In this document: positions 5,341 through 49,727 of the stretch, piece after piece
Layout: each line of letters opens with the position of its first letter
Numbering within the stretch: position 1 is the stretch's first letter
Translations under genes and position numbers: made by a program
From: Flavonifractor sp. An10
GTDB taxonomy: Bacteria; Bacillota; Clostridia; Oscillospirales; Oscillospiraceae
DNA length: 64,000 nt
Assembly (NCBI RefSeq): GCF_002161215.1
Contig: NZ_NFMB01000002.1
Coordinates: 62,001 to 126,000 of the forward strand
Direction of reading: 5' to 3'
Notes under the pieces: model-generated
What the model saw: only the letters and a program-made list of their open reading frames with translations
Database searches by the model: none
What the model was told of the DNA's origin: nothing

Positions 5341-5347
5341 AAAGAGG

Positions 5348-5395
5348 AAAGTGGGGCAAAGTGGAGGGAAAGACCGCTGATAGACAGTAAAGTGG
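5348..5395 (+). promoter_or_regulatory. MraZ operator boxes
   Basis: AAAGTGG occurs at 5348-5354, 5358-5364 and 5389-5395, with a degenerate AAAGACC at 5369. The first two are spaced 10 bp, one helical turn, as in described MraZ operators (AAAGTG repeats with 3-bp spacers). They overlap the transcription start, consistent with repression of the cluster by MraZ; the last box overlaps the mraZ ribosome site. Confidence 0.75.
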
Positions 5396-5402
5396 AGGGA
5401 GA

Positions 5403-31985: not shown

Positions 31986-33317
31986 ATGTCGACCAGAAAG
32001 GAAGATATTATCCGCATGGTGCGGGACGAGGACATTGAGTTTATCCGCCTCCAGTTTACCGACATCTTCGGACAGCTCAAGAACGTGGCCATCACGGCCT
32101 CCCAGATCGAGAAGGCGGTGAACAACCAGATCATGTTCGACGGTTCCTCCATCGAGGGCTTCGTCCGCATTGACGAGTCCGACCAGTACCTCTATCCCGA
32201 TCTGGACTCCTTCGCCATCTTCCCCTGGCGGCCCAGCCACGGCAAGGTAGCCCGGCTCATCTGCGACGTGTACAACCCCGACGGCACCCCCTTTGTGGGC
32301 GATCCCCGCTACGTGCTGAAAAAGGTGCTCCAGAAGGCCAGGGACATGGGCTACGACGCCTTTAACGTGGGCCCTGAGGCGGAGTTCTTCCTGTTCCAGA
32401 CCGACGACGAGGGCAAGCCCACCACCAAGACCAACGACGAGGCGGGCTACTTCGATCTGGGCCCCCTGGATCACGGCGAGGGCACCCGGCGGGAGATCTG
32501 CCTGGCCCTGGAGCAGATGGGCTTCGAGATCGAGGCCAGCCACCACGAGGTGGCCGAGGGCCAGCACGAGATCGACTTCAAATACGCCGGCGCCCTCCAC
32601 ACCGCCGACAACATCATGACCTTCAAGCTGGCGGTGAAGACCCTGGCCCAGAAGAACGGCCTCCACGCCACCTTCATGCCCAAGCCCATCTTCGGCATCA
32701 ACGGCTCCGGCATGCACACCAACATGTCCCTGTTCAAGAACGGGAAGAACGCCTTCTATGACCCCGACGATCCCAAGGGCCTGTCCAGGGAGGCGTACAG
32801 CTTCATCGCCGGCCTGCTGGCCCATGTGAAGGGCATGGCGGCGGTGACCAACCCGCTGGTCAACTCCTACAAGCGGCTGGTGCCGGGCTATGAGGCCCCC
32901 TGCTACCTGGCCTGGTCGGCCTCCAACCGCTCCGCCCTCATCCGCATCCCGGCGGCCCGGGGCCAGTCCACCCGGGTGGAGCTGCGCTCCCCCGACCCGT
33001 CCTGCAACCCTTATCTGGAGCTGGCGGTCTGCCTGGCCGCCGGCCTGGACGGCATCGAGAAGGGCATGACCCCTCCCGACGAGGTCACCGAGAACATCTT
33101 CGTCATGGACGAGGCCGCCCGGAAGGCCCACGGCATCGACAGCCTGCCCGGCTCCCTGGAGGAGGCCATCCACGCCATGGAGGCCGACCAGCTGATCCTG
33201 GACACCCTGGGGGAGCACGTGGTGACCAACTACCTGGACGGCAAGCGCCGGGAGTGGGACGAGTACAGAACCCGTGTCAGCTCCTGGGAGCGGGAGAAGT
33301 ATATCATCAATTACTAA
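31986..33317 (+). CDS. glnA: Glutamine synthetase, type I
   Basis: 443 aa, GSI-alpha length. Ammonia assimilation: glutamate + NH3 + ATP to glutamine. [17 protein letters not shown], the metal-site block [22 protein letters not shown], and the ATP-binding [20 protein letters not shown] are present. No adenylylation-site tyrosine context of the beta type is seen. ATG 31986 is 9 nt after GGAG. The last codons (EKYIINY, stop) recur 140 bp downstream. Confidence 0.97.
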
Positions 33318-33431
33318 GCTCTCGTCCCCCGCGGGAGCGCGTGGGGGGCCTCCGGGGGGAATCGATTCCCCCCGGAAGGGGCGGCCTTGGGCGCGAAGCG
33401 CCGCGCTTTCCGCAGAAAGCGCCCGCCCCGT
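33318..33431 (+). repeat. Hairpin cluster inserted between two copies of the glnA 3' end
   Basis: 114 bp, very GC-rich. Contains CCCGCGGG, a perfect 26-bp palindrome at 33351-33376 centred on ATCGAT, GGCGC-GAA-GCGCC and GCTTTC-CGCA-GAAAGC. No ORF. It sits inside the glnA-gltBD unit between glnA and the ANTAR gene. Confidence 0.8.
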
Positions 33432-33455
33432 GGGAGAAGTATATCATCAATTACT
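33432..33455 (+). repeat. Displaced copy of the glnA 3' end
   Basis: 24 bases identical to 33292-33315, encoding EKYIINY plus the first stop base; the stop is TGA here and TAA in the working gene. Confidence 0.9.
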
Positions 33456-33493
33456 GAGCAGAAAAACGAGCCGCCCGGCGGGAGGTGGATACG

Positions 33494-34036
33494 ATGGAAA
33501 CCGTGATTGTCGCCTTTGAAAACAGCAAGACCGCCTGGCGGGTGAAGGAGATCCTGGAGGGGGGCGGCGTGGCCTCCTGCGTGGTGTGCCGCTCCGCCGA
33601 CCAGGTGCGGCGCACCCTTCACAAGCTCCACGTGCCGGCGGTGGTGTGCGGCTACAAGCTGGGGGATCAGACGGCGGAGCTGATCTTCGACGATCTCCCC
33701 CTGTCCTGCGCCATGCTGGTGCTGGCCTCCCAGAGCATGCTGGAGCTGATGCAGAACGACGACATTTTCCGCCTGCCCACCCCGGTGTCCAGGGGGGATC
33801 TGGCGGCGTCGGTGCGGATGCTGCTGCAGATCGGCCGGCGGCTGGAGCGGTATGTGCGCCCCCGCCGCAGCCGGGAGGAGCAGAGCCTTATCGACCAGGC
33901 CAAGCGCCTGCTGATGGATCGGAACGACATGACAGAGGAGCAGGCCCACCGATATTTACAGAAAAAAAGCATGGACAGCGGGGCAAAATTAGTGCAGACG
34001 GCCCAGCTGGTGCTGGACAGCACAGAACCGGAATAG
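33494..34036 (+). CDS. ANTAR-domain RNA-binding regulator with a degenerate receiver domain
   Basis: 180 aa. Residues ~125-172 form an ANTAR three-helix domain (EEQSLIDQAKRLLMDRNDMT EEQAHRYLQKKSMD), which binds hairpin pairs in leader RNAs and blocks terminator formation. The N-terminal ~110 residues look like a response-regulator fold but lack the acidic pocket: VIVAFEN replaces the DD-containing strand and VVCGYKL the phospho-acceptor strand, so phosphorylation is unlikely. Position between glnA and gltB, both with terminator-containing leaders, suggests it controls nitrogen assimilation. ATG 33494 is 8 nt after GGAGG. Confidence 0.88.
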   Translation: METVIVAFENSKTAWRVKEILEGGGVASCVVCRSADQVRRTLHKLHVPAVVCGYKLGDQTAELIFDDLPLSCAMLVLASQSMLELMQNDDIFRLPTPVSRGDLAASVRMLLQIGRRLERYVRPRRSREEQSLIDQAKRLLMDRNDMTEEQAHRYLQKKSMDSGAKLVQTAQLVLDSTEPE

Positions 34037-34041
34037 CAGGA

Positions 34042-34093
34042 GGGACAAGGCGGTCTCACGGCGGCAGTCGGGAGCGCGGCTGCCGCCGTTTTT
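34042..34093 (+). promoter_or_regulatory. gltB leader: AnnGnn hexaloop hairpin followed by intrinsic terminator
   Basis: Stem GGGAC / GTCTC (34042-34046, 34053-34057) closes hexaloop AAGGCG, with A1 and G4 as in ANTAR targets. Immediately after comes ACGGCGGCAG / CTGCCGCCGT (34058-34067, 34080-34089) and five T. This terminator separates the ANTAR gene from gltB. Confidence 0.68.
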
Positions 34094-34113
34094 ATCGGAA
34101 AGGGGAACGGACT

Positions 34114-37100
34114 ATGACAACACAGGAGCGCCCGCGGGGGCTTTACCGCCCGGAATTTGAGCACGACGCCTGCGGCATCGGCGCCGTGGTGGACATACAC
34201 GGCCGACCCAGCCACCGGACGGTGGACGACGCGCTGAAAATCGTGGAGAAGCTGGAGCACCGGGCGGGCAAGGACGCCGAGGGGGAGACCGGCGACGGCG
34301 TGGGCATCCTGGTGCAGCTCTCCCACCGCTTTTTCGCCAAGGCGGCGGAGGAGGCGGGCTTTGCCCTGCCCGGTGCCCGGGACTACGGCGTGGGCATGTT
34401 CTTCTTCCCCCAGGACACCCTGAAGCGGAGTCAGGCCAAGAAGATGTTCGAGGTGATTGTGGAAAAGGAGGGCATGGTCTTCCTGGGCTGGCGGGCGGTG
34501 CCCGTCTGCCCGGAGATTCTGGGCCGGAAGGCCCGGGACAGGATGCCCTTCATCGAGCAGGCCTTCGTGGCCCGGCCCGGGGGGGTGGAGCCCGGCCTGC
34601 CCTTCGACCGGAAGCTCTATGTGGCCCGGCGGGTGTTCGAGCAGTCCAACGACAACACCTACGTGGTCTCCCTGTCCAGCCGCACCATCGTCTACAAGGG
34701 CATGTTCCTGGTGGATCAGCTGCGCCGGTTTTACCCGGATCTCCAGAGCCCGGACTACCAGTCCGCCATCGCCATGGTTCACTCCCGGTTCTCCACCAAC
34801 ACCAACCCCTCCTGGGAGCGGGCCCACCCCAACCGCCTCATGGCACACAACGGCGAGATCAACACCATCCGGGGCAATGTGGATCGCATGCTGGCCCGGG
34901 AGGAGACCATGTCCTCGCCGCTGCTGGACGCGGACATGGACAAGGTGCTGCCGGTGGTGAACGAGGCCGGCTCCGACTCCGCCATGCTGGACAACACCCT
35001 GGAGTTCCTCATGATGGGCGGCATGGATCTGCCCCTGGCGGTCATGGCCTGCATCCCGGAGCCCTGGCGGGGGGACAAGACCATCTCCCGCACCCGGCGG
35101 GATCTCTACCACTACTACGCCACGCTGATGGAGCCCTGGGACGGCCCGGCCTCCATCCTGTTCTCCGACGGGGACGTGGTGGGGGCGGTGCTGGACCGCA
35201 ACGGCCTGCGCCCCTCCCGGTACTATGTCACATCCGACGGCCGCCTGATCCTCTCCTCCGAGGTGGGGGTGCTGGATGTGCCCGCCGGGGAGATTGTGGA
35301 GAAGTCCCGGCTCCAGCCGGGGCGGATGCTGCTGGTAGACACCGTCCAGGGCCGCATCATCGGCGACGACGAGCTGAAGGAGCACTACGCCGCCCGGCAG
35401 CCCTACGGCGAGTGGCTGGATGCCAACCTGCTCCACCTGCGGGATCTGCCCATCCCCAACAAGCGGGTGGAGCGGCACAGCCGGGAGGAGCTCCACCGGC
35501 TCCAGAAGGCATTTGGCTACACCTATGAGGACGTGCGCAGCACCATCCTCCCCATGGCCCGCACCGGGGCGGAGCCCACCGCCGCCATGGGCACCGACAT
35601 CCCCCTGGCGGTGCTGGACAGCAGGGAGCAGCCCCTGTTCCACTACTTCAAGCAGCTCTTCGCACAGGTGACCAACCCGCCCATCGACGCCATCCGGGAG
35701 GAGATTGTCACCGACACCACCGTCTACGTGGGGGACGACGGCAACCTGCTCCAGGAGAAGGCGGAGAACTGCCGGGTGCTCCAGATCCACAACCCCATCC
35801 TCACCTCCACCGACCTGATGAAGATCCGGGCCATGAACCAGCCCGGCTTCCGGGTGGCCACCGTGTCCATGCTCTACTATAAGAACACCCCCCTGGATCG
35901 GGCCCTGAACCACCTGGCCCTGGCGGTGGACAGGGCCTGGCGGGAGGGGGCCAACATCATCATCCTGTCCGACCGGGGGGTGGACGAGAACCACGTGGCC
36001 ATCCCGTCCCTGCTGGCGGTGTCCCATATCGAGCAGCACCTGATCCGCACCAAGAAGCGCACGGCGGTGTCCATCCTGCTGGAGTCCGCCGAACCCCGGG
36101 ACGTACACCACTTCGCCACCCTGCTGGGCTACGGCGCCCGGGCCATCAACCCCTACCTGGCGGAGGAGACCATCGTCTCCCTCATCGAGGAGGGGGTGCT
36201 GGACAAGGACTTCCACACCGCCGTGGCCGACTACGACGCCGCCATCCTCCACGGCATCGTGAAGATCGCCTCCAAGATGGGCATTTCCACCCTCCAGTCC
36301 TACCAGTCCGCCCAGATCTTTGAGGCCATCGGCATCAGCCGGGACGTGATCGACCAGTACTTCACCAATACCGTCTCCCGGGTGGGGGGCATCGGCCTGA
36401 AGGAGATCGCGGCCATGGTAGACCGCAATCACTCCAAAGCCTTTGACCCCCTGGGCCTGGACACCAATCTGGAGCTGGACAGCCTGGGTGAGCACAAGGC
36501 CCGCGCCGGCGGGGAGGATCACATGTACAACCCCCGCACCATCCACCTGCTCCAGGAGGCCACCCGCCGGGGGGACTACAGCCTGTTTCAGGAGTACACC
36601 GCCCTGGTGGACGACGAGACCAGCCCCCACACCCTCCGGGGCCTGCTGGACATGAAGTACGCCGACACGCCTATCCCCCTGGACGAGGTGGAGAGCGTGG
36701 ACTCCATCGTCAGGCGCTTCAAGACCGGGGCCATGAGCTACGGCTCCATCTCGAGGGAGGCCCACGAGTGCCTGGCCCAGGCCATGAATCTGCTGGGGGG
36801 CAAGTCCAACTCCGGCGAGGGTGGCGAGGAGCCCGACCGGCTCCAGGATCCCGCCCGGTGCTCCGCCATCAAGCAGGTGGCCTCCGGCCGCTTCGGCGTC
36901 ACCAGCGAGTACCTGGTCTCCGCCAAGGAGATCCAGATCAAGATGGCCCAGGGGGCCAAGCCCGGCGAGGGCGGCCACCTGCCCGCCGGCAAGGTGTACC
37001 CCTGGATCGCCAGGTGCCGCCACTCCACCCCCGGCGTCACTCTGATCTCCCCGCCGCCCCACCATGACATCTACTCCATTGAGGATCTGGCCCAGCTCAT

Positions 37101-38652
37101 CTACGACCTGAAAAACGCCAACCGGCAGGCCCGCATCTCCGTCAAGCTGGTCAGCGAGGCGGGTGTGGGCACCATCGCCGCCGGCGTGGCCAAGGCCGGG
37201 GCCCAGGTGGTGCTCATCTCCGGCTATGACGGCGGCACCGGCGCCGCCCCCCGCACCTCCATCCACAACGCCGGCCTGCCCTGGGAGCTGGGCCTGGCGG
37301 AGACCCACCAGACCCTGATCCAGAACGGCCTGCGCTCCCGGGTGGTGGTGGAGACCGACGGCAAGCTGATGAGCGGCCGGGACGTGGCCATCGCCTGCAT
37401 GCTGGGGGCGGAGGAGTTCGGCTTTGCCACCGCCCCCCTGGTGACCATGGGCTGCGTCATGATGCGGGTGTGCAACCTGGACACCTGCCCCGTGGGGGTG
37501 GCCACCCAGAACCCGGAGCTGCGCAAGCGCTTCCAGGGCAAGCCGGAGTACGTGGTCAACTTCATGCGCTTCATCGCCCAGGAGCTGCGGGAGCACATGG
37601 CACGCCTGGGCGTGCGCACGGTGGAGGAGCTGGTGGGCCGCACCGACCTGCTCCGGGTGCGCCGGCCCGCCGTCAACGAGCGGGCGGCCACGGTGGATCT
37701 GTCCGCCATCCTGAACAACCCCTACGTGGGCACCGGCGCCAAGACCCACTTCGACCCCGCCGACGTGTACGACTTCCGCCTGGAGGACACGGTGGATCTG
37801 AAGGTGCTGGAGAAGAAGCTGGGCAAGTCCCTCCAGAAGGGGGAGCCCAAACAGCTGGAGCTGGCGGTGTCCTCCACCGACCGGGCGGTGGGCACCATCC
37901 TGGGCTCCGACATCACCCGCCTCCACGGCAGTGAGCTCACCGACGACACCTTCACCGTCAAGTGCACCGGCGGCGGCGGCCAGTCCTTCGGCGCGTTCCT
38001 CCCCAAGGGCCTGACCCTGGAGCTGGAGGGGGACGCCAACGACTACCTGGGCAAGGGCCTGTCCGGCGGCAAGATTGTGGTCTATCCGCCTAAAAACAGC
38101 GCCTTTGTGCCCGAGGACAACATCCTGGTGGGCAACGTGGCCCTCTACGGGGCCACCAGCGGCACGGCCTTCCTCAACGGCGTGGCCGGGGAGCGGTTCT
38201 GTGTCCGCAACTCCGGCGCCACCGCGGTGGTGGAGGGCGTGGGCGACCACGGCTGCGAGTATATGACCGGCGGCCGGGTGGTGGTGCTGGGCCCCACGGG
38301 CCGCAACTTCGCCGCGGGCATGAGCGGCGGCGTGGCCTATGTGCTGGACGAGGGCCGGGACTTCTACCTGCGGCTCAACAAGGCCCTGGTGTCCATGGAG
38401 CTGGTCACCGAGCAGCACGACATTGCCGAGCTCAGGGGCCTGATCCAGGCCCACGCGGACGCCACCGGCTCGCCCAAGGCCAAACGGATCCTGGACGACT
38501 TCGACGCCTGGCTGCCCAAGTTCAAGAAGATCCTGCCCCACGACTATGACCGGATGCTGCGCACCATCGCCCGGTATGAGGAGCGGGGCATGAGCCGGGA
38601 GCAGGCCCAGGTGGAGGCGTTCTACGCCAACACCCGGGGAAAGGGGGAATAA
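34114..38652 (+). CDS. gltB: Glutamate synthase, large (alpha) subunit
   Basis: 1512 aa. Class II amidotransferase domain whose catalytic Cys, after propeptide removal, is in HDACGIGAVVDIHG (~17-30); central domain; FMN-binding synthase domain with PGEGGHLPAGKV and SGYDGGTGAAPRTS; the 3Fe-4S cluster cysteines in CVMMRVCNLDTCPVG; and the C-terminal GXGXG beta-helix (NDYLGKGLSGGKIVVYPP). Makes two glutamates from glutamine and 2-oxoglutarate. ATG 34114 gives the normal length; a much longer frame upstream is the ANTAR gene in another frame. Confidence 0.97.
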   Translation: MTTQERPRGLYRPEFEHDACGIGAVVDIHGRPSHRTVDDALKIVEKLEHRAGKDAEGETGDGVGILVQLSHRFFAKAAEEAGFALPGARDYGVGMFFFPQDTLKRSQAKKMFEVIVEKEGMVFLGWRAVPVCPEILGRKARDRMPFIEQAFVARPGGVEPGLPFDRKLYVARRVFEQSNDNTYVVSLSSRTIVYKGMFLVDQLRRFYPDLQSPDYQSAIAMVHSRFSTNTNPSWERAHPNRLMAHNGEINTIRGNVDRMLAREETMSSPLLDADMDKVLPVVNEAGSDSAMLDNTLEFLMMGGMDLPLAVMACIPEPWRGDKTISRTRRDLYHYYATLMEPWDGPASILFSDGDVVGAVLDRNGLRPSRYYVTSDGRLILSSEVGVLDVPAGEIVEKSRLQPGRMLLVDTVQGRIIGDDELKEHYAARQPYGEWLDANLLHLRDLPIPNKRVERHSREELHRLQKAFGYTYEDVRSTILPMARTGAEPTAAMGTDIPLAVLDSREQPLFHYFKQLFAQVTNPPIDAIREEIVTDTTVYVGDDGNLLQEKAENCRVLQIHNPILTSTDLMKIRAMNQPGFRVATVSMLYYKNTPLDRALNHLALAVDRAWREGANIIILSDRGVDENHVAIPSLLAVSHIEQHLIRTKKRTAVSILLESAEPRDVHHFATLLGYGARAINPYLAEETIVSLIEEGVLDKDFHTAVADYDAAILHGIVKIASKMGISTLQSYQSAQIFEAIGISRDVIDQYFTNTVSRVGGIGLKEIAAMVDRNHSKAFDPLGLDTNLELDSLGEHKARAGGEDHMYNPRTIHLLQEATRRGDYSLFQEYTALVDDETSPHTLRGLLDMKYADTPIPLDEVESVDSIVRRFKTGAMSYGSISREAHECLAQAMNLLGGKSNSGEGGEEPDRLQDPARCSAIKQVASGRFGVTSEYLVSAKEIQIKMAQGAKPGEGGHLPAGKVYPWIARCRHSTPGVTLISPPPHHDIYSIEDLAQLIYDLKNANRQARISVKLVSEAGVGTIAAGVAKAGAQVVLISGYDGGTGAAPRTSIHNAGLPWELGLAETHQTLIQNGLRSRVVVETDGKLMSGRDVAIACMLGAEEFGFATAPLVTMGCVMMRVCNLDTCPVGVATQNPELRKRFQGKPEYVVNFMRFIAQELREHMARLGVRTVEELVGRTDLLRVRRPAVNERAATVDLSAILNNPYVGTGAKTHFDPADVYDFRLEDTVDLKVLEKKLGKSLQKGEPKQLELAVSSTDRAVGTILGSDITRLHGSELTDDTFTVKCTGGGGQSFGAFLPKGLTLELEGDANDYLGKGLSGGKIVVYPPKNSAFVPEDNILVGNVALYGATSGTAFLNGVAGERFCVRNSGATAVVEGVGDHGCEYMTGGRVVVLGPTGRNFAAGMSGGVAYVLDEGRDFYLRLNKALVSMELVTEQHDIAELRGLIQAHADATGSPKAKRILDDFDAWLPKFKKILPHDYDRMLRTIARYEERGMSREQAQVEAFYANTRGKGE

Positions 38653-38654
38653 CC

Positions 38655-40115
38655 ATGGGTAAACCCACTGGATTTTTGGAATACACCCGCCAGGGCAATC
38701 CCAGCGAAGCCCCGCTGGCCCGCATCAGGCACTACAACGAGTTCCACCCACGGCTGGGCCGGGAGGAGCGGATGCGGCAGGGGGCCCGGTGCATGGAGTG
38801 CGGCGTGCCCTTCTGCCAGTCCGGCGCGGTGCTGAACGGCATGGTGTCCGGCTGCCCCCTTCACAACCTGGTGCCCGAGTGGAACGACCTGGTGTACCAC
38901 GGCAGCTTCGGACACGCCCTGGAGCGGCTGCTCAAGACCAACAACTTCCCGGAGTTCACAGGAAGGGTGTGCCCCGCCCTGTGTGAGGCGGCCTGCACCT
39001 GCGGCCTCCACGGGGAGCCGGTCACCGTCAGGGACAACGAGCTGGGCATCATCGAGGACGCCTGGGAGCGGGGACTTATGAAGCCCCGGCCCCCAAAAAA
39101 TCGCACCGGAAAGCGGATTGCGGTGGTGGGCTCCGGCCCCTCCGGCCTGGCCTGCGCCGACCAGCTCAACAGTCGGGGCCACTCCGTCACCGTGTTCGAG
39201 CGGGAAGACCGCCCCGGCGGCCTGCTGATGTACGGCATCCCCAACATGAAGCTGGAGAAGTCCATCGTCCAGCGGCGGCTGGAGCTCATGGCCGCCCAGG
39301 GGGTGGAGTTCCGCACCGGCGTGGACGTGGGCAGGGACATCAGCGCCCAGGAGCTGCGCCGGGACTATGACGCGGTGGTGCTGTGCTGCGGCGCGGCCAA
39401 TCCCCGGGATCTCTCCGTCCCCGGCCGGGAGGGGGAGGGGGTCTGGTTCGCGGTGGACTTTTTGAAGGAGACCACCCGGGCCCTGCTGGACAACGGCCTG
39501 CAGGAGGGCACCTCCCCCTCCGCCAGGGGGAAGCACGTGGTGATCGTAGGCGGCGGCGACACGGGCAACGACTGCGTGGGCACCTGCATCCGCCACGGCT
39601 GCGAGAGCGTCACCCAGCTGGAGATGATGCCCAAGGCCCCGGACAGCCGCGGGGAGAACAACCCCTGGCCCGAGTGGCCCAGGGTGTGCAAAACCGACTA
39701 CGGCCAGGAGGAGGCCATCGCCGTCTTTGGCCATGACCCGAGGATCTACGAGACCACCGTATCCAGGCTGATCCGGGACGAGGAAGGGGCCCTCACCGGT
39801 GTGGAGACCGTCCGCCTGGGGCCGGATCACAAGCCCCTGCCCGGCACGGAGCAGGCCCTGCCCTGCGAGCTGCTGCTCATCGCCGCCGGGTTCCTGGGCC
39901 CCCAGGACTATGTGCCCGAGGCGTTTGGTTTGGAACGAACCGCCCGCTCCAATGTCCAGACAGCCGAGGGGGGCTATGACACCGGCGTGGCGGGCGTGTT
40001 CGCCGCCGGAGACATGCGCCGGGGCCAGTCCCTGGTGGTGTGGGCCATCCAGGAGGGCCGCGCCGCCGCCCGCCAGGTGGACGAGTACCTGATGGGCTAC
40101 ACCAACCTGGAATAG
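38655..40115 (+). CDS. gltD: Glutamate synthase, small (beta) subunit
   Basis: 486 aa. NAD(P)H-dependent FAD flavoprotein feeding electrons to the large subunit. N-terminal 4Fe-4S cysteines in CMECGVPFC and [15 protein letters not shown]-binding [16 protein letters not shown] (~155-170); NADPH-binding [20 protein letters not shown] (~295-314). It begins 3 bp after gltB. Confidence 0.96.
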
Positions 40116-40126
40116 CGACAAAAGGT

Positions 40127-40155
40127 GCGCGCCGCAAACTGCGGCGCGCCCTTTT
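40127..40155 (+). terminator. Terminator after gltD
   Basis: 10-bp stem GCGCGCCGCA / TGCGGCGCGC, AAC loop, then CCTTTT. Confidence 0.88.
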
Positions 40156-40231
40156 CTGCCTGAATTTCGGAAGACACCAGGAGATGTCGGCGGCGGCCTG
40201 ATGTGGAACCCGCCGTGCGGCTGAAAGAGAG

Positions 40232-40259
40232 GGGACAGGGCAGCCCGGTGTGCTATAAT
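40232..40259 (+). promoter_or_regulatory. Extended -10 promoter of the class II aldolase gene
   Basis: TGC-TATAAT at 40251-40259 with a weak GGGACA 16 bp upstream. Confidence 0.65.
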
Positions 40260-40293
40260 GAAGTCAATCTTGGACGAAAGAGGAAGTGTGCAT

Positions 40294-40935: not shown

Positions 40936-40952
40936 CAGGACACAAAAACAGA

Positions 40953-40989
40953 CCGGGCGGTGCGTACGCACCGCCCGGCCTGTTTTTTT
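40953..40989. terminator. Bidirectional terminator between the aldolase gene and clpB
   Basis: 26-bp palindrome (40953-40978) centred on GTAC with CTGTTTTTTT on the right and AAAAACAG on the left, serving both converging genes. Confidence 0.92.
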
Positions 40990-41011
40990 ATGATGCGGTT
41001 ATGGGGCTGTG

Positions 41012-43645
<2,634 letters not shown>

Positions 43646-44127
43646 AAATCGCGTCACATCCTTTCTCGTCGGCAGACCCGCCAAAGGCTGGGCTCTGCCG
43701 GGGGTGGGCGGCCTATTAGGCCGCCCGCAGGTTGGCAAAAACTTTATGGTATTTCAGGGGCATGGCACCGACGGCGGCCCGGCGGGCCAAGCCGGTACAA
43801 CGCAACGACTTTCAGAGCTTGCAGGGTAATCCCGATGCGTGCCGCCCAAGGCGCGGCAGCGCCTGTAACAAAATCGCCAGGAAAACGGGCGGCAATGCAC
43901 GCCCGGTTTTTGCCCTGTTTGTACAGCCCACCGCCGCCATGAGCCCCCGTTTTGGGGGGCGCCGGGGGAACTCCCCCGGCCCCTTCTTTCCCCCATTTCT
44001 TTGGGAAGAAATGGGGCCCTGGCCGGGCAGGCCCGCCCCCGGGGGCCCCGCCGGAGGCCGGGCCTCCACTGGGCGGAACACGAACAGGAGCCGGTCAGCC
44101 GCAGCTGACCGGCTCCCGCGTTCCCGA
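43646..44127. repeat. Gene-free hairpin-rich stretch between clpB and hsp20
   Basis: 482 bp, no credible gene. Hairpins include GGGCGGCC...GGCCGCCC near 43707-43729, CCCCCGTTTTGGGGG near 43945-43960, CCGGGGGAACTCCCCCGG near 43968-43985 and CCCATTTCTTTGGGAAGAAATGGGG near 43993-44017. GAGCCGGTCAGC / GCTGACCGGCTC (44088-44115) lies just after the hsp20 stop and may end its transcript, though there is no T run. Confidence 0.65.
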
Positions 44128-44562
44128 TCAATCGATGGCGATCCGGCGGCTCTCGGGCACCACCGGCACGGCCTTGGGCAGGTTCAGCTCCAGGATGCCG
44201 TTGTTGTAGGCGGCGGTGATCCCGGCCTCGTTGATGCCGGTGATGTCAAAGGAGCGGCTGAAGGAGCCGTAGCGGCGCTCGCGGCGGATGTAGGTGCCCT
44301 TGTCGTCCTTCTGATCCTGGTTCTCACTGTGCTCGGCGGTGATGGTCAGGATGCCGTCCTTCACATCCAGCTTGATGTCGCCCTTGTCAAAGCCGGGGAG
44401 CTCGGCTTCTAAAATGAACTTGTCGCCGGCGTCCCGAATGTCGGTGCGGAAGGCGGGCAGATTGGTGTTGCTGCTGCGGAAGAAGTTCCGGGCAAAGTTA
44501 TCAAAGGTATCGAACACGTTGTCTTCGCTGCGCTCAAAGGGAAGCATGCCAAACATAATCAA
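44128..44562 (-). CDS. Hsp20/alpha-crystallin family small heat-shock protein
   Basis: 144 aa. Alpha-crystallin domain ~40-140 with FILEAELPGFDKGDIKLDVK and the closing AAYNNGILELNLPKAVPV (the A-x-x-x-n-G-v-L motif). ATP-independent holdase chaperone. A perfect CIRCE lies about 190 bp upstream, so HrcA control is plausible. Confidence 0.95.
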   Translation of the reverse strand: MIMFGMLPFERSEDNVFDTFDNFARNFFRSSNTNLPAFRTDIRDAGDKFILEAELPGFDKGDIKLDVKDGILTITAEHSENQDQKDDKGTYIRRERRYGSFSRSFDITGINEAGITAAYNNGILELNLPKAVPVVPESRRIAID

Positions 44563-44747
44563 TCTCTCCTTTTTCCTGAAAGCGGATGGTTAGCAATGAT
44601 GGGTTCTGCGTGCTAAAATCTTGGGTTTTTCACGGCTGTCATCCTCTTTCTGGGGCCCTCGCGGGCCCTCCTATCTCGTTTTCTGAACCTAAGTATAGAG
44701 GGATTCTGTGAACAAATATACATGAAATTATGTCCAAATTGTAAATA

Positions 44748-44774
44748 TTAGCACTCTTATATATGGAGTGCTAA
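44748..44774. promoter_or_regulatory. CIRCE element (HrcA operator)
   Basis: Exact consensus TTAGCACTC-N9-GAGTGCTAA. It sits between hsp20 (leftward) and the MATE gene (rightward); a heat-shock target such as hsp20 is the natural client. Confidence 0.93.
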
Positions 44775-44786
44775 AACAACTGACCC

Positions 44787-44815
44787 TTTACGGAGTGGGA
44801 AAAAAGAGGTATAAT
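44787..44815 (+). promoter_or_regulatory. Promoter of the MATE transporter gene
   Basis: TTTACG, 17-bp spacer, TATAAT; begins 12 bp downstream of the CIRCE. Confidence 0.7.
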
Positions 44816-44845
44816 ACCCTCCGCTTGTGCGGAAGGGAGAGAACT

Positions 44846-46231
44846 ATGAAACGTACCAACGACCTGGGCCGCGACCCGGTTTTCAAGCTGGTGTGCCGGC
44901 TGGCTATCCCCACCATGCTGGCCCAGCTGGTCAGCGTGCTCTACAGCATCGTGGATCGCATTTACATCGGCAACATCCAGGGCATCGGCGACCTGGCTCT
45001 GGCGGGGGTGGGGGTGTGCGGCCCCATCGTCACCCTGCTGTCCTCCTTTGCCTCCCTGGTGGGCCTGGGAGGCTCCCCCATCATGGCCATGCGCATGGGG
45101 GAGGGGAGGAAGAAGGAGGCGGGCCGGGTTCTGTCCAACTGTTTCCTCATGCTGCTGGTGCTGTCGGTGGCGCTGACGGCGGTGTTCCTGCTGTCCAAGG
45201 GGCAGCTGCTCCGCTGGTTCGGCGCCAGTGAGGCCACTTTCGGCTATGCCGACACCTATCTGACCATCTACACCGCCGGCACCTTTTTCGCCCTCATGGC
45301 CACCGGCATGAACAGCTTCCTCATCGCCCAGGGCTACTCCGGCCTGGGCATGGCCACGGTGATGCTGGGGGCGGTGCTCAACATCGTGTTGGATCCCGTC
45401 TTTATCTTCGCCCTCCACATGGACGTGGCCGGGGCGGCCATCGCCACGGTGATCTCCCAGATGGCCTCCTGCGCCTTCGTGCTGACCATGCTGCTGCGCA
45501 AATCCATGCCGGTGCCCCTGCGGTGGGGCAGGCCGGACTGGGCCGTCATGCGGCGGGTGCTGGCTTTCGGCCTGTCCCCCTTTCTGATCATCGCCACCGA
45601 CAGCATCCTGCTCATCGTGCTCAACACAGTGCTCCAGCGGTACGGCGGCCCCGAGCAGGGGGACGCCCTGGTCACCTGCGCCACCATCGTGCAGAGCTAC
45701 CTGCTCCTCATCACCATGCCCATGGGCGGCCTCACCCTGGGCACCCAGCCGGTGGTCAGCTTCAACTACGGCGCCGGCAACCTGGAGCGCATCAAAAAGG
45801 CCATCCAATGTATTGTGGGCCTGTGCCTCACCTTCTGCGCGGGGATGATGGTGTTCACCCACACCCTGTCCCCGGTGTTTGTGGGCCTGTTCACCCGCAA
45901 TCCGGAGCTGGCGGAGCAGTCGGTGGGCTATATTAAGGTGTTCACCGCCATGATCCTCCCCCTGGCCGTCCAGTACCCCCTGGTGGACGAGACCACCGCC
46001 CTGGGCCACGTGCGGCTGGCCCTGTTCTGCTCCCTGTTCCGCAAGAGCGTGTTCCTGGCCTGCCTGCTCCTGCTGCCCGCCCTGGTGTCCGCCCCGGCCA
46101 CCTTCCTGTCCGAGCCCATCGCCGACGCGGTGGCCGCCACGGTGACCACCTGCCTGTTCCTCCACTTCTTCCCCAAAATCCTGGCCAAACGGGCCAGGCA
46201 GGAGGAGGGTCAACCCAAAGTTGCGGAATAG
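44846..46231 (+). CDS. MATE-family multidrug/Na+ antiporter
   Basis: 461 aa, 12 predicted membrane helices in two halves. LAIPTMLAQLVSVLYSIVDRIYIG at the N-terminus (first helix and the IVDRIYIG motif) and QPVVSFNYGAGNLERIKKAI in the second half are typical of MepA/NorM-like exporters. Substrate unknown. Start ATG 44846 after GGGAGAG. Confidence 0.92.
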   Translation: MKRTNDLGRDPVFKLVCRLAIPTMLAQLVSVLYSIVDRIYIGNIQGIGDLALAGVGVCGPIVTLLSSFASLVGLGGSPIMAMRMGEGRKKEAGRVLSNCFLMLLVLSVALTAVFLLSKGQLLRWFGASEATFGYADTYLTIYTAGTFFALMATGMNSFLIAQGYSGLGMATVMLGAVLNIVLDPVFIFALHMDVAGAAIATVISQMASCAFVLTMLLRKSMPVPLRWGRPDWAVMRRVLAFGLSPFLIIATDSILLIVLNTVLQRYGGPEQGDALVTCATIVQSYLLLITMPMGGLTLGTQPVVSFNYGAGNLERIKKAIQCIVGLCLTFCAGMMVFTHTLSPVFVGLFTRNPELAEQSVGYIKVFTAMILPLAVQYPLVDETTALGHVRLALFCSLFRKSVFLACLLLLPALVSAPATFLSEPIADAVAATVTTCLFLHFFPKILAKRARQEEGQPKVAE

Positions 46232-46291
46232 CTGGTGGACGCAACCGGGGAGATCCGGTATTCTGGAGCCATCCAGAAAGGAGTGTTTTCT

Positions 46292-46681
46292 ATGTATCCG
46301 ACAACTGAAACAACGGCAGGCTCCGGCGCGGCTGCAATGTTGATCCCCATGTTGATCGGCCTGGTGATCTGGCTGGCCATCCTGGGCGTGGTCATCTACC
46401 TGGTGGTGCTGCTCATTAAGGCCCTGCGCAAGTATCTGCGCTCCGGCCCCGTCCGGCAGGAGAAGGCAGAGATGGCCAGGAGTCTGGGGGAGACCCTCAG
46501 GTACCACCGCACCCGCTGCAAGATGACCCAGGAGTTTGTGGCGGAGGCCATCGGCGTCAGCCGTCAGGCGGTGAGCAAGTGGGAGAGCGGCGCCGCCGAC
46601 CCCAGCACCTCCAATCTCCTGGCTCTGGCCAAGCTGTACGGCGTGTCGCCGGAGGAGCTTCTGAAAAGCGCGGAAGAGTAA
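46292..46681 (+). CDS. Membrane-anchored XRE-type HTH protein with N-terminal membrane helix
   Basis: 129 aa. Residues ~14-45 form one or two membrane helices (AMLIPMLIGLVIWLAILGVV IYLVVLLI), and ~66-125 a Cro/C1 helix-turn-helix domain (RYHRTRCKMTQEFVAEAIGV SRQAVSKWESGAADPS). Here the DNA-binding domain is at the C-terminus, the reverse of the more common HTH-then-membrane order. Possibly a membrane-tethered regulator; target unknown. Confidence 0.87.
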   Translation: MYPTTETTAGSGAAAMLIPMLIGLVIWLAILGVVIYLVVLLIKALRKYLRSGPVRQEKAEMARSLGETLRYHRTRCKMTQEFVAEAIGVSRQAVSKWESGAADPSTSNLLALAKLYGVSPEELLKSAEE

Positions 46682-46721
46682 AACAGGCAGGGCCCGTCCA
46701 AACGGACGGGCCCTGCCTGTT
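46682..46721. terminator. Strong hairpin terminator after the membrane HTH gene
   Basis: 18-bp stem from AACAGGCAGGGCCCGTCC to its complement, AAAC loop. Few T follow; it may stop transcription from both sides, including leftward from ilvC. Confidence 0.75.
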
Positions 46722-46753
46722 CAAATACCTGTAAAATTTCCGGTTCAGCGCGC

Positions 46754-46802
46754 CCGGGTTTTGCTCAGTTGGACGCGGTGTCCAGATCCTTGTCGCCGCC
46801 CC
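46754..46802 (-). repeat. Displaced copy of the ilvC 3' end
   Basis: 49 bp matching 46945-46993 with one difference (GCG versus GCC, both Ala). In the ilvC sense it encodes [11 protein letters not shown], the stop and a few following bases. Confidence 0.9.
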
Positions 46803-46944
46803 GCGTCGCCACAAGCTCCGCATTGTTCGCTTCCGCCCCTCGTCGGCGCAAAGTCCGCTCTGCTCGGGACGCCCTGGCGGACATCCCTCGCTGCGCTCCC
46901 TTGCGCCTCCTCTCCGGACGCGACCCGCTCCGCTGGGCTCGCGT
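46803..46944 (-). repeat. Hairpin element between the two ilvC 3' ends
   Basis: 142 bp. In the ilvC sense it holds GGACGCGA ... TCGCGTCC and GTCCGC ... GCGGAC stems and the words GAGCGCAGCGAG and GAGGGATGTCC, which are also found, almost unchanged, in the ilvN elements. No ORF of its own. Confidence 0.75.
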
Positions 46945-46955
46945 CCGGGTTTTGC

Positions 46956-47975
46956 TCAGTTGGAGGCGGTGTCCAGATCCTTGTCGCCGCCCCAGATCAT
47001 GTTCTTGCGCAGCTCCTCGCCCACGATCTCCATCTGGTGCTTCTTGAGCTGCTGGCGCTTGGAGTTGAAGAAGGTGCGGCCGTTCTTGTTCTCGGCGATC
47101 CACTTGCCGGCGAAGGTGCCGTCCTGGATGTCGGAGAGGACGGCGCGCATGCGGGCCTTGGTCTCCTCGTGGGGGATGACCCGGGGGCCGGAGACGTACT
47201 CGCCGAACTCGGCGGTGTCGGAGATGGAGTAGTTCATGGCCGCCACGCCGCCCTTGTTGATCAGGTCGATGATCAGCTTCATCTCGTGGATGCACTCGAA
47301 GTAGGCGTTCTCCGGCTCGTAACCGGCCTCCACCAGCACCTCGAAGCCGCAGCGCATCAGATCCACCACGCCGCCGCACAGCACGGTCTGCTCGCCGAAC
47401 AGGTCGGTCTCGGTCTCGTCGTGGAAGGTGGTCTCCATCACGCCGGCCCGGGCGCCGCCGATGCCGGCGATGTAGGCCAGGGCGATCTTATAGGCGTTGC
47501 CGGTGGCGTTCTGCTCCACGGCCACCAGGCAGGGCACGCCCTTGCCGTTGACGTAGGTGGAGCGGACGGTGTGGCCGGGGCCCTTGGGGGCCGCCATGAA
47601 CACGTCCACGCCGGCGGGGGGGACGATCTGCTGGTAGCGGATGTTGAAGCCGTGGGCGAAGGCCAGGGCCTTGCCCTCGGTCATGTAGGGGGCGATGTCC
47701 TTCTTGTAGACCTCGGCCTGCACCTCGTCGTTGATGAGCATCATGACGATGTCGCCCCACTGGGCGGCCTCGGGAATGGTCTTGACGGTCAGGCCGGCCT
47801 TCTCCGCCTCAGCCCAGTTCTTGGAGCCCTGGCGCAGGCCCACGCACACGTCGCAGCCGGAGTCCTTCAGGTTGAGAGCATGGGCGTGGCCCTGGGAGCC
47901 GTAGCCGATGATGGCGATCTTCTTGCCGTTGAGGTAGGAGAGCTCGCAGTCCTTCTCGTAGTACATCTTAGCCAT
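46956..47975 (-). CDS. ilvC: Ketol-acid reductoisomerase (NADP+), class I
   Basis: 339 aa. Second step of valine/isoleucine synthesis. NADPH-binding [17 protein letters not shown] (~24-40); [13 protein letters not shown]; and the knotted C-domain metal ligands in [16 protein letters not shown] and [14 protein letters not shown]. Start MAKMYYEKD at 47975 after AAAGGAG. Confidence 0.97.
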
Positions 47976-48018
47976 GGTAATACACTCCTTTTTATCCAGT
48001 GGTGGCTGTTGATAGCTT

Positions 48019-48047
48019 ATCATAGCACAGGCGGGAACGAAAGAATG
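48019..48047 (-). promoter_or_regulatory. Possible own promoter of ilvC
   Basis: Minus strand extended -10 TGC-TATGAT (48019-48027) with no convincing -35. Confidence 0.45.
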
Positions 48048-48100
48048 ATAACTGTGTTACAATCTCAAAAAAGATTTGGGTAGCATCCCCGGCGGGGAGC

Positions 48101-48553
48101 TCAATCGAGCACCCGTTCCAGCTCGATCTCATCCTCGTCCGCCCGGCCGGTGGCAGAGAAGTGCAGGGTCTGGTACAAGTGACAGGCAACGGAATTTTCC
48201 GGGCTGACGGTCAGCCGGACGATGCTGGAATCCCCAAAGGGCCTGGAGCGGATATAGGCGAGCGCCGCCTCCATGGCGGCCCGCCCGTAGCCCCTGCCCT
48301 GGTGCCGGGCGTCGATCATCAGATGCCAGATGAAATAGGCTTCTTCGTCATAGTCATAGATGACCATCAGATATCCGACCACTTCACCGGCGCGGCAGAC
48401 CGCGAAGGGGGTGCACTGCCCGCGGTACACATACGCCTGGGCCAGGCTTCGGATGGGGTGGGATACAAACTTTTCCTGCTGGGCGTCCAATTCCAGGGAA
48501 AAGCAGGCGAGAAAATTGGATTCATCCACGTTCTGCAAGGTAATACAGTCCAT
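48101..48553 (-). CDS. GNAT-family acetyltransferase (BltD/PaiA-like)
   Basis: 150 aa. YFIWHLMIDARHQGRGYGRA AMEAAL (~72-97) is the acetyl-CoA motif A, with the W-x-L-M-I-D-x-x-x-Q-x-x-G-Y-G form seen in spermidine/spermine acetyltransferase-like proteins; VSPENSVACHLYQTLHF is motif B. Located between ilvN and ilvC but no obvious role in that pathway. Confidence 0.85.
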   Translation of the reverse strand: MDCITLQNVDESNFLACFSLELDAQQEKFVSHPIRSLAQAYVYRGQCTPFAVCRAGEVVGYLMVIYDYDEEAYFIWHLMIDARHQGRGYGRAAMEAALAYIRSRPFGDSSIVRLTVSPENSVACHLYQTLHFSATGRADEDEIELERVLD

Positions 48554-48576
48554 ACTTCCTCCTTTAATGCGGAGGG

Positions 48577-48633
48577 CTAACGGATGAAAACCCTCCTTCT
48601 GGCTGACAGGAACCTGTTTTCATACAGCTTCAT
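48577..48633 (-). CDS. Possible 18-codon upstream ORF before the GNAT gene
   Basis: Reads MKLYENRFLSARRRVFIR then TAG, preceded by AGGGGGAGAG. Its 3' end forms one arm of a GGAGGG / CCCTCC hairpin just ahead of the GNAT ribosome site. Could be a leader peptide or chance. Confidence 0.35.
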   Translation of the reverse strand: MKLYENRFLSARRRVFIR

Positions 48634-48677
48634 ATCTGCTCTCCCCCTTTCTCTGGGAAAAATATTTATATAATAAA

Positions 48678-48744
48678 AGGTTTCGCTGCGCGAAACACTT
48701 GTACGCCGCAGAGCGGCGGGCCGCCGTTGGCGGCCTGGTGGCCC
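48678..48744 (-). repeat. ilvN hairpin element, truncated distal unit
   Basis: 67 bp nearly identical to the right part of the unit at 49021-49169 (GTTTCGC-TGC-GCGAAAC, GCCGCAGAGCGGC and GGCCGCCGTTGGCGGCC hairpins). It ends in AT-rich sequence with no further tail. Confidence 0.8.
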
Positions 48745-48780
48745 TTACAGGAAATTCTTGCCCAAATTAAATTCCGTCTG
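48745..48780 (-). repeat. Displaced ilvN 3' end, copy C
   Basis: 36 nt encoding QTEFNLGKNFL and stop TAA. It differs from the working gene at three positions, all synonymous (TTT/TTC, AAT/AAC, TTG/CTG). Confidence 0.88.
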
Positions 48781-48938
48781 CATATCCCAAACGCGCGGGG
48801 CGCGTTTGGGAGCCCTCCGGGCGGATTTCACATCCTCGGCGGAAATGAATTCCGCCTGCGGCAAGGTTTCGCTGTGCGAAACGCTTGGACGCCGCAAAAC
48901 GGCGGCTCGCTGCGCTCGCAAGAGCAGACCGGCGAAAG
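48781..48938 (-). repeat. ilvN hairpin element, middle unit
   Basis: 158 bp. Plus-strand order of hairpins: CCAAACGCGC-GGG-GCGCGTTTGG, GCCC-TCC-GGGC, GGCGGAA-ATGAA-TTCCGCC, GTTTCGC-TGT-GCGAAAC, GCCGCAAAACGGC. Homologous throughout most of its length to the unit at 49021-49169. Confidence 0.85.
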
Positions 48939-49020
48939 TCACAGGAAATTCTTGCCCAGGTTGAACTCGGTCTGCTCTTTGGTCTCGTCACCGATGTTGT
49001 AGGCGCCGCGCTCCAGGGCC
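48939..49020 (-). repeat. Displaced ilvN 3' end, copy B
   Basis: 82 nt encoding ALERGAYNIGDETKEQTEFN and then LGKNFL, stop TGA. Against the working 3' end (49170-49251) most differences are silent, with one Thr/Asn replacement, the pattern of a once-functional allele. Confidence 0.9.
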
Positions 49021-49169
49021 GTTTCCCAAACGCGCGGGGCGCGTTTGGGAGCCCTCCGGGCGGATTGGACATCCTCGGGGCAAGTGAATTGCCCCTGTGG
49101 CAAGGTTTCGCTGCGCGAAACGCTTGGACGCCGCAGAGCGGCGGGCCGCCGTTGGCGGCCTGGTGGCCC
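49021..49169 (-). repeat. ilvN hairpin element, proximal unit
   Basis: 149 bp directly after the working ilvN stop. Same hairpin order as the middle unit, but the third hairpin has swapped base pairs (GGGGCAA-GTGAA-TTGCCCC instead of GGCGGAA-ATGAA-TTCCGCC) and an extra GGCCGCC-GTT-GGCGGCC. Confidence 0.87.
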
Positions 49170-49727
49170 TTACAGGAAATTCTTGCCCAGGTTGAATTCC
49201 GTCTGCTCTTTGGTCTCATCGCCGATGGTGTAGGCGCCTCTTTCGAGGGCCACCATGCCGGTGCGCACCAGCTCCAGGATGCCGAAGGCCTCCAGCAGCT
49301 TCTGCATGGCGTCGGCCTTGGACTCGTCGCCGATGAGGGCCAGGGTGAGGGACTTGAGGGACACGTCGATGATGGAGGCCCGGAAGATGTTGGCGATCTG
49401 GATGACCTCGTTGCGGATGTCGGGGGTTTCGGCCCTGACCTTGAACATGACCAGCTCCCGGCGGATGGAGCGCTCCGGCTTGAGCTCCTGGACGGAGTAG
49501 ACGGGGAACTGCTTGCGCAGCTGGTTCATGATCTGCTCGGTCATGGCCTCGTCGGCCATGACTTCGATGGTGATACGGGAGACGGCGGGGTCGTCGGTGG
49601 TGCCCACCGCCAGGGATTCGATGTTGTAGCCCTTCCGGGAGAACAGCCGGGAGACCTGGGACAGGACGCCGGCGGCGTTTTCCACCAGCACCGAGAGGGT
49701 GCGGCGGGTCACGGTTGCTTCACTCAT
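49170..49727 (-). CDS. ilvN: Acetolactate synthase, small (regulatory) subunit
   Basis: 185 aa. ACT domain at the N-terminus (TLSVLVENAAGVLSQVSRLF SRKGYNIESLAVG) that senses valine, then a C-terminal ALS_ss domain (RELVMFKVRA ... FRASIIDVS ... ELVRTGMVALERG). Supports and feedback-regulates IlvB. Start MSEATV at 49727, 16 bp after the ilvB stop. Its 3' end is the first of three tandem versions. Confidence 0.95.
   Translation of the reverse strand: MSEATVTRRTLSVLVENAAGVLSQVSRLFSRKGYNIESLAVGTTDDPAVSRITIEVMADEAMTEQIMNQLRKQFPVYSVQELKPERSIRRELVMFKVRAETPDIRNEVIQIANIFRASIIDVSLKSLTLALIGDESKADAMQKLLEAFGILELVRTGMVALERGAYTIGDETKEQTEFNLGKNFL

Follow-up and report, generated by a model that had tools for sequence, protein, structure and literature searches.

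Gut bacteria related to Flavonifractor carry dozens of short elements lodged in the final or opening codons of genes, which supply the working ends of the genes they occupy and mostly bear about 13 nt complementary to their own insertion site; the arrangement resembles a natural programmable-insertion system. Sequence comparison reveals a recurrent anatomy: a replacement gene end (T1), a short spacer, a guide of about 13 nt and a structured hairpin core. A unit is typically about 220 nt long, which leaves no room for an ordinary protein to be encoded. Our window is a 64,000-nt stretch of the genome of Flavonifractor sp. An10, for which the first-pass annotation had claimed that the ends of glnA, ilvC and ilvN are repeated downstream. 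These repeats are present at all three loci, with spacings of 140, 191 and 231 nt, respectively, and Pfam confirms the genes beside them.

The canonical case among the three is ilvN, whose locus consists of two stacked units and the remnant of a third (Table 1). Its 80-nt repeat copies differ at nine positions, and a third, shorter copy (T3) lies further downstream. By our reading by eye, seven of the eight differing codons in the 80-nt copies are synonymous and the stop codons differ (TAA/TGA), in keeping with the earlier claim that the differences are almost only silent. T3, with the guide-A copy and truncated core that follow it, we read as what is probably left of a third, still older unit. 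Among relatives, 11 of 16 orthologous ilvN genes lack the repeat (locus L252 was not readable, and for L244 the downstream flank is just 57 nt long); no ilvN match was found in genomes G010 and G019, and G012 and G017 hold detached ilvN-end pieces on other contigs, where units split by the assembly are possible. Site A is occupied by a unit in the window's own genome and in G004, and site B by a unit with a site-B guide in the own genome and in G006. Such occupied and empty sites suggest that the units are mobile, in comparisons that use one genome per species and so record presence and absence between species.

Table 1. Features of the ilvN, ilvC and glnA loci, in window positions (a slash marks an insertion point)
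Feature	Position	Strand	Remarks
ilvN coding sequence	49170..49727	-	Pfam ALS_ss_C/ACT; unit A's replacement end T1 makes up its final 82 nt (49251-49170)
ilvN unit A T1, working gene end	49172..49251	-	80-nt direct repeat extending into stop codon
ilvN unit A guide AGGGCCACCAGGCCG	49156..49170	-	antisense to ilvN site CGGCATGG/TGGCCCT, one mismatch (L041)
ilvN unit A structured core P1-P4	49022..49142	-	R1 model match, 103 bits (G000:C8:111022-111142)
ilvN unit A T2, older displaced end	48941..49020	-	by eye holds site B (CCAAAGA/GCAGACC), where unit B sits
ilvN unit B replacement gene end; shorter, reaching TGA	48939..48975	-	read from sequence; site B as in L248
ilvN unit B guide GGTCTGCTCTTG	48919..48930	-	antisense to site B, 12/13
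ilvN unit B structured core	48783..48906	-	R1 model match, 107 bits (G000:C8:110783-110906)
ilvN T3, oldest end	48745..48781	-	then guide-A copy and truncated core to about 48677 (by eye)
ilvC T1, working ilvC end plus 16 nt past stop	46940..46993	-	direct repeat
ilvC insert, second element family	46803..46939	-	as query: 25 own-genome matches, several partial
ilvC T2, displaced end	46749..46802	-	direct repeat
glnA T1, working gene's end	33292..33319	+	direct repeat
glnA insert, hairpins	33320..33431	+	R1 match and guide both sought, not found
glnA T2, displaced end	33432..33459	+	direct repeat

A model of the core (R1, hairpins P1-P4), built on 17 copies from the own genome, has 56 matches in that genome, and the core is present in all 20 searched genomes of the genus, where copy number ranges from several to dozens. 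We obtained 176 model matches, of which 21 were set aside for repeated surroundings or a missing flank, leaving 155 distinct copies. Covariation in the core is greater than in 500 of 500 shuffles. G-U pairs are almost absent from P2 and P3 (3 of about 1100 cells), which favours pairing at the level of DNA; this case is made less clear by one P4 position where G-U is the commonest pair (27/64) and by one pair beside P3 where it is frequent (11/66). With a weak skew to go by, the units gave no sign of a replication-strand bias such as the lagging-strand preference of IS200/IS605 elements: the G-rich strand holds 20 of the 42. One contig in a virus collection carries the core near its end. Inserts measure 112-193 nt in 14 loci and the three window cases; they contain no homing endonuclease reading frame, and matches to the P2 pattern add no longer form, since all 33 in the own genome coincide with short model matches (lists compared by eye). 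Larger autonomous copies were sought by scanning 210 sequences for 350-7500-nt direct repeats, which returned nested, tandem or unrelated cases. Two of these were inspected and rejected: L146 is a plain gene-end duplication, and L177 is an insertion sequence with IS3-type reading frames (named by eye) inside a unit.

The cores sit between direct repeats. Repeats flank 127 of the 155 distinct copies, against 6 of 471 random positions, which bears out the expectation that gene-end repeats occur more often than chance; 28 copies have none. The own-genome figure of 35/37 is not independent, because the copies behind the model were drawn from own-genome loci most of which were already known to show repeats. 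Clean sets of 76-86 copies were formed by excluding offset junctions and tandem arrays. Of 76 such copies, 53 have a T1 whose end falls no more than 3 nt from a stop or start codon (random 2.9%), with the gene on the T1 side. The mirror arrangement is seen in none of the 76 at 3 nt (random 5.3%) and in four at 5 nt (random 8.2%). The insertion point lies some 30-150 nt within the coding region, near its stop or start. The 3' junction is precise (gap of -1 to +1 in 61/86) and the 5' junction variable, and the left flank of the insertion shows only a weak AAGGA/, with G at -2 in 75%, and no fixed short motif. Over 61 stop-type units, T1 and T2 differ by 171 synonymous and 36 non-synonymous codons. 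These data support the view that the upstream copy is the working gene end and that an older end has been left behind. A direct-repeat scan found no loci in 345.6 kb from two relatives lacking core matches; in 400 kb of own-genome sequence away from the core matches it found five, none of the gene-end kind (four duplicate a hairpin around another element, and one lies in repetitive coding-like sequence). The 20 stretches taken from the own genome were hand-picked rather than random, and they contain no model match.

The earlier proposal of a short element family at gene ends therefore stands as regards the working upstream copy and the older end behind it, but the three window cases do not form one family. 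At ilvC, where the 54-nt repeat has two differences, the insert belongs to a family related to, but distinct from, the R1 core family, and no recognisable guide was found in this copy. At glnA, with a 28-nt repeat and one difference, the insert has neither a match to R1 nor a guide. Likewise, many 3' ends do serve as sites, as had been proposed, but gene starts are hit as well: in 23 of 117 units by a heuristic that leaves some ambiguous, and clearly in truB, uvrC and lepA (named by eye). A dispersed core between direct repeats would also describe an ordinary MITE with unusually long target-site duplications. We consider this highly improbable, given repeats that range from 28 to 151 nt rather than having a fixed length, end at codons, differ as alleles do and come with a guide; ordinary target-site duplication was rejected on the codon ends and allele-like differences.

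Directly 5' of the core's first hairpin lies the guide, about 13 nt antisense to positions -6 to +7 of the intact target around the insertion point, a feature absent from the first reading and found in this analysis. Guides score at least 10 at 67 of 84 clean loci (17 fall below). Mismatched pairs reach this score in 5.1% of cases, and of 82 windows placed elsewhere in these genes only one does. The guide matches its target at 0.87-0.97 from -3 to +6 (68 of 83 loci used), a profile somewhat flattered because the alignment was chosen for best match; the mismatched pairs passed through the same best-alignment procedure. When guides were scored independently of the repeats, a score of at least 10 was reached by 90 of the 120 copies that have repeats and 7 of the 26 that lack them, against 5% of shuffled pairs. 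Two of those seven (L011, L112) may be trivial, as they sit in palindromes or tandem arrays.

For targets whose sequence is not the same in two species, 42 cells could be compared: in 34 the guide matches the target of its own species, and in 2 that of the other. The units also fall into gene-specific lineages: the nearest core belongs to the same gene at another locus in 31 of 51 cases, compared with a mean of 1.2 and a maximum of 7 after label shuffling. Since units in the same gene share ancestry, the covariation of guide and target could reflect selection in cis. Another reading is that gene end and guide form an mRNA stem-loop around the stop or start codon that is useful to the host, with the duplicated end incidental. 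The guide does pair with T1 in cis and covary with it, and among copies without a repeat at score 18, 4 of 26 keep a guide scoring at least 12. A stem-loop in cis, however, would not need the complement to be centred on the junction of core and T2, as it is in 67 of the 68 guides scoring at least 9, which span the insertion point; nor is a unit found in most orthologous ilvN genes (see above), and we regard this explanation as very unlikely.

The guide also recalls group I introns, which carry an internal guide sequence with P1 and P10. Its layout, 5'-(anti +7 to +1)(anti -1 to -6)-3', corresponds to P10 followed by P1 of such an intron, and the core is strongly structured. The element could then be intron-like and act at the level of RNA, with the guide aligning the exon ends (the left one with T2) and the stretch of T1, guide and core being spliced out and perhaps returning by reverse splicing and reverse transcription. 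Against this, the window units and ten loci yielded no Rfam match, group I included, at the gathering score (L003 gave a single chance-level match, at a relaxed threshold), the last base of the unit is not a fixed G (C33, G21, T17, A12 of 83), 23 of 117 units are antisense to their gene by our heuristic, and the element-bearing genomes G029 and G042 have no reverse transcriptase. We rejected a self-splicing intron on the first three grounds and give the broader RNA-level reading a slim probability.

Four candidate enzyme families, RVT_1, Y1_Tnp, IS110 DEDD and TnpB zinc-ribbon, were searched across 60 genomes, and none tracks the element. RVT_1, the reverse transcriptase to be expected if the element were a group II intron or otherwise mobilised by such an enzyme, occurs in 7 of 20 genus genomes, Y1_Tnp (E≤1e-5) in 7 of 20, with none in G014, G029, G042 and others, and IS110 in 9 of 20, with none in the carriers G029 and G042; the TnpB zinc-ribbon family, typical of guided-nuclease elements, is missing from the own genome, G029 and G042. 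As to the suggestion that carriers share a recombinase or RAYT-like protein, no RAYT-like (Y1) gene follows the element; nor was an attachment core identified. In G042, which belongs to another family, there are 94 core matches and none of the 29 copies read has a flanking repeat, which means that neither T1 nor guide is needed for the core to multiply. REP/BIME-type repeats are dispersed palindromes, and the dispersed, many-copy hairpin core is like them; the G042 copies read resemble REP/BIME alone. Unlike REP/BIME, many carriers here lack a RAYT (Y1) gene, and in the genus the core is joined by a guide and gene-end replacement. In IS110 elements a bridge RNA specifies the insertion target, so that a nucleic-acid guide is common to both, but several carriers here have no IS110 gene, the guide is single and contiguous, and a replacement gene end is carried.

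The lack of a tracking enzyme among the families searched and the repeat-less G042 copies would also suit a by-product of replication, in which the core stalls the fork and the new strand duplicates the gene end before folding back across the junction, T1 and the "guide" being scars, selection keeping the events that spare the gene and no dedicated enzyme taking part. In its favour, too, T1 at L018 is followed by 12 nt that repeat the start of T perfectly in inverted orientation. Against it, guide quality does not drop as T1 and T2 diverge (rho 0.02, n=83); guides follow their target between species inside gene-specific lineages; T1 and T2 cease to match at the stop codon, also in L003 and L122, where T itself is 100% identical; and the two copies differ as alleles do. 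We judge this origin unlikely.

We instead put about an even chance on guide-directed elements that carry replacement gene ends and insert at the level of DNA with an enzyme supplied in trans. Under this model, the guide of a folded strand would pair with the target, a trans-acting enzyme would cut there, and the stretch from the start of T1 to the end of the core would be joined into the cut, much as IS608 is targeted by a DNA guide, only a longer one. T1 would keep the gene whole while the displaced end, T2, remained behind the core, and units would persist as gene-specific lineages re-entering empty alleles. Three parts of this model we infer from the pattern: target choice by the guide, movement as DNA and the work of an enzyme in trans. 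In its full form, a protein-free element directed by its own guide of some 13 nt to one exact codon position of one gene, made harmless by a copy of the end it displaces, present in dozens per genome with different guides and driven by an enzyme, the proposal falls slightly short of even likelihood in our estimation.

Two further described systems are close. In fungal mitochondria, mobile ORF (mORF) elements take the place of gene C-termini, in Allomyces atp6 and in Glomus atp6, atp9, cox2 and nad3, the Glomus atp6 ends sharing 63.5% DNA and 91% protein identity (PMC3630166). As here, a working gene end is inserted and the native end left downstream, but mORF elements carry an endonuclease reading frame, for which our units have no room, and at atp6 the native end lies about 1000 bp downstream (PMC3630166). 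IS608 has a 4-nt guide for a fixed TTAC, directly 5' of the base of a terminal hairpin, and inserts immediately 3' of the recognised flank (PMC5934647). A guide at the hairpin foot that pairs with the target is thus a likeness to IS200/IS605, in our case judged from complementarity and position; the guide here is about 13 nt rather than 4, covers both sides of the site and differs from gene to gene. The present element also has no transposase, and several carriers have no Y1 gene. From the mORF elements our units further differ in using a nucleic-acid guide, in numbering dozens per genome and in having gene starts among their sites.

A system that numbers from several copies to dozens per searched genome of the genus would lend itself to direct tests for its enzyme. 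A literature search largely confined to open-access journals found no description of such an element. To our knowledge, no structured repeat that rewrites many gene ends without breaking the genes has been described, and the units would do exactly this even if the guide is a scar. If the guide selects the site, they would amount to programmable insertion as it occurs in nature, in a system a few hundred nucleotides long that itself repairs each gene it enters. Bacterial and protein-free, it would parallel the gene-end-replacing elements of fungal mitochondria, and it would offer a natural example of extended base pairing of the kind engineered into IS608.

At the ends of glnA, ilvC and ilvN, whose identities are backed by Pfam, the first-pass annotation had claimed duplicated gene ends, and these are present, with copies 140, 191 and 231 bp downstream and hairpin-rich DNA between. 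The ilvN duplication proved richer than described, containing three ends with guides and cores, the last core truncated. The three cases had also been tentatively taken as one element family, which holds for ilvN, a member of the core family, and fails for ilvC, whose insert belongs to a second family with 25 matches, several of them partial. This second family has the same plan as the core family and a different 3' part, and replacement ends and guides are present at a putative tpiA gene and at locus L215; no guide was found in the ilvC copy or in the glnA insert, which also has no match to the core model.

The anatomy of the unit is well supported: the working gene end (T1) is followed by a spacer, a guide of about 13 nt and a core of hairpins P1-P4, beyond which lies the displaced older end (T2). 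As a DNA query, the ilvN insert gave 31 matches in its own genome, and most of the 30 copies fetched are flanked by direct repeats. When 17 copies were aligned, P1-P4 covariation scored 0.386; shuffled alignments averaged 0.137 and none of 500 reached the observed value, and shifting the partner by one column brought the score down to 0.07. The covariance model R1, built on these copies, has 56 hits in the own genome. All 20 genomes searched in the genus (own included) have matches to it, as do 2 of 17 in the rest of the family and 1 of 23 in the rest of the order; a pattern scan across named genomes gave at least 111 stretches, from Flavonifractor, Pseudoflavonifractor, Intestinimonas, further Oscillospiraceae and a small number of records under other names. 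At gathering score, Rfam has no family that fits the window's units or ten further loci, and a relaxed threshold at locus L003 gave a single match at chance level. In the alignment fitted to the model, G-U pairs fill 3 of about 1100 cells in P2 and P3, 27 of 64 at one P4 position, where they are common, and 11 of 66 at one pair beside P3. Their near-absence from P2 and P3 suggests that these hairpins may pair in DNA.

Gene-end duplication recurs with the core well above chance, as had been proposed: among 155 distinct copies with flanks (from 176 R1 hits; repeat threshold score 18), direct repeats flank 127, compared with 6 of 471 positions chosen at random within the same loci. Repeats flank 35 of 37 copies in the own genome, 26 of 26 in the same genus, 64 of 89 on named contigs and two of the other three, from genomes G029, G033 and G042. 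Among the 86 clean single copies, repeat length is 28-151 nt (median 63), 61 have a 3' junction exact to within one base, and the distance from T1 to the core is variable. In 53 of 76 cases (42 stop, 11 start), T1 ends no more than 3 nt from a stop or start codon of the gene lying on that side, compared with 2.9% of random positions nearby; the mirror arrangement is absent from all 76 at 3 nt and present in 4 at 5 nt, where 8.2% would be expected. The heuristic used to sort the 117 units with a repeat assigns 84 to gene ends and 23, some of them ambiguous, to gene starts in the antisense direction, with 10 left without a class. Genes hit at ends include ilvN and, named by eye from peptides, infB, uvrB, mutL and response regulators; those hit at starts, named in the same way, include truB, uvrC and lepA. 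Tandem arrays of units stand at several sites in the own genome.

We also scanned, free of any model, 345.6 kb of two relatives and 20 stretches of 20 kb each from the own genome, chosen by hand and lacking R1 hits. The own-genome stretches contained five direct-repeat loci, none with a guide, so R1 missed no guided unit in them; the relatives gave 0 such loci. A further element type (AGCGTGTCGAAAAAG ... TTTTTCGACA or similar) is flanked on both sides by copies of a terminator-like palindromic hairpin, 28-33 nt long.

Coordinates of features in the window and at other loci
Feature	Location	Strand	Remarks
ilvN array	window 49251 down to 48677		three successive ends, each followed by a guide and a core; last core truncated
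T-box leader	window 51511-51733	minus	upstream of ilvB-like gene
Other element type	L301:2994-3217
Other element type	L312:4089-4465
Other element type	L314 7214-7480	reverse complement
Other element type	L315:16135-16405
Piece possibly related to other element type	window 13918-14055
Duplication of ~270 nt around a gene end	L146:2005-2278 and about 3496-3768		~1.2 kb with two ORFs between
IS nested in spacer of a gene-end unit	L177 about 4450-5760		IS3-type ORFs (by eye); the unit retains an 18-nt complement of its target
Core copy near end of virus-collection contig	L268:8653-8694		adjoining ORFs phage-like by eye

Lying between T1 and the core, the guide reads as the reverse complement of the uninterrupted target, with the insertion point inside the matching stretch. 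Its antisense score reaches 10 at 67 of 84 clean loci; the same score is reached by 5.1% of mismatched pairs and by 1 of 82 windows taken from other parts of these genes. Of the 68 guides scoring at least 9, 67 span the junction (median extent -6 to +7 around the insertion point). Over the 68 of 83 loci used, the match per position is 0.87-0.97 at -3 to +6; at the edges it is 0.5-0.74, and beyond -6 to +9 it falls to 0.16-0.47. As read from the listed sequences, the guide's 3' end often lies a few nt 5' of P1 or of P0, an optional extra hairpin. A repeat-independent test at score 10 identifies guides in 90 of the 120 copies with repeats and in 7 of the 26 without, versus 5% of shuffled pairs. 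The target motif is weak (AAGGA|, with G at -2 in 75%). Guide-directed insertion by a putative enzyme is the best explanation, to which we give an even chance; its main rival is that the units are scars of replication.

The working and leftover ends had been read as two alleles differing mostly at silent positions, and 61 stop-type units bear this out, with 171 synonymous and 36 non-synonymous codon differences, third positions accounting for 172 of the 225 changes. Across 56 same-gene pairs, T1 and T2 are on average 94% identical within a locus, and identity between loci is 81% for T1s, 81% for T2s and 83% for cores. We located the ilvN end in 16 relatives (G017 had too little sequence). Empty sites, suggested as a check, exist between species: 11 of the 16 lack the repeat, while G004 carries a unit at insertion point A and G006 one at insertion point B with the B guide; in G003 and G016 the sequence reads as truncated remnants, and in the own genome units A and B are stacked. 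By eye, the sequence just after ilvN at loci L240 and L249 holds apparent remnants with the guide and first hairpin and without the rest of the core or the old end. At ilvN, T2 is nearer than T1 to the native end in 14 of 16 relatives, as would be expected if T1 arrived with the unit. Across all genes the trend differs, T1s being more alike than T2s between loci in 30 pairs and less so in 18.

Among 22 same-site pairs from different loci, the target differs in 10, and of the 42 cells at the differing positions the guide agrees with its own target in 34 and with the other's in 2 (some pairs have members in common, so they are not independent). By this comparison the guide is kept matched to its target; its score does not fall with T1/T2 divergence (rho 0.02, n=83). 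Because the nearest core belongs to the same gene at another locus in 31 of 51 units, against a mean of 1.2 and a maximum of 7 when gene labels are shuffled, many units form gene-specific lineages; the other 20 of 51 lack this signal.

The core also occurs bare. Genome G042, from another family of the order, has 94 core matches, and none of the 29 copies read (L081, L374-L399, L401, L402) has a flanking repeat, so T1 and the guide are not inherent in the core, which in this genome looks like a REP-type repeat. A RAYT-like protein, which had been suggested as something to look for, did not emerge: of four enzyme families sought across 60 genomes, RVT_1, Y1_Tnp, IS110 and the TnpB zinc-ribbon, none tracks the element. 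Y1 (IS200/RAYT-type) transposases have 12 matches in the own genome and none in 41 of 60 genomes searched. According to PMC6006769, IS608 and ISDra2 use the lagging-strand template, whereas the strand of the element here is unrelated to GC skew (20 of 42, the skew being weak).

Two known systems each share one feature with these units. In fungal mitochondria (PMC3630166), endonuclease-bearing elements replace a gene end and the old end stays downstream; gene-end replacement is common to both, but the units here span a few hundred nt, with no room for an ordinary protein. IS608 (PMC5934647) chooses its target via a guide adjoining the hairpin foot, and has been engineered for longer base pairing with 12/17-nt targets; a guide beside a hairpin is again shared, but is combined here with gene-end replacement. 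By the tests made, the element is a member of neither system and combines both features.
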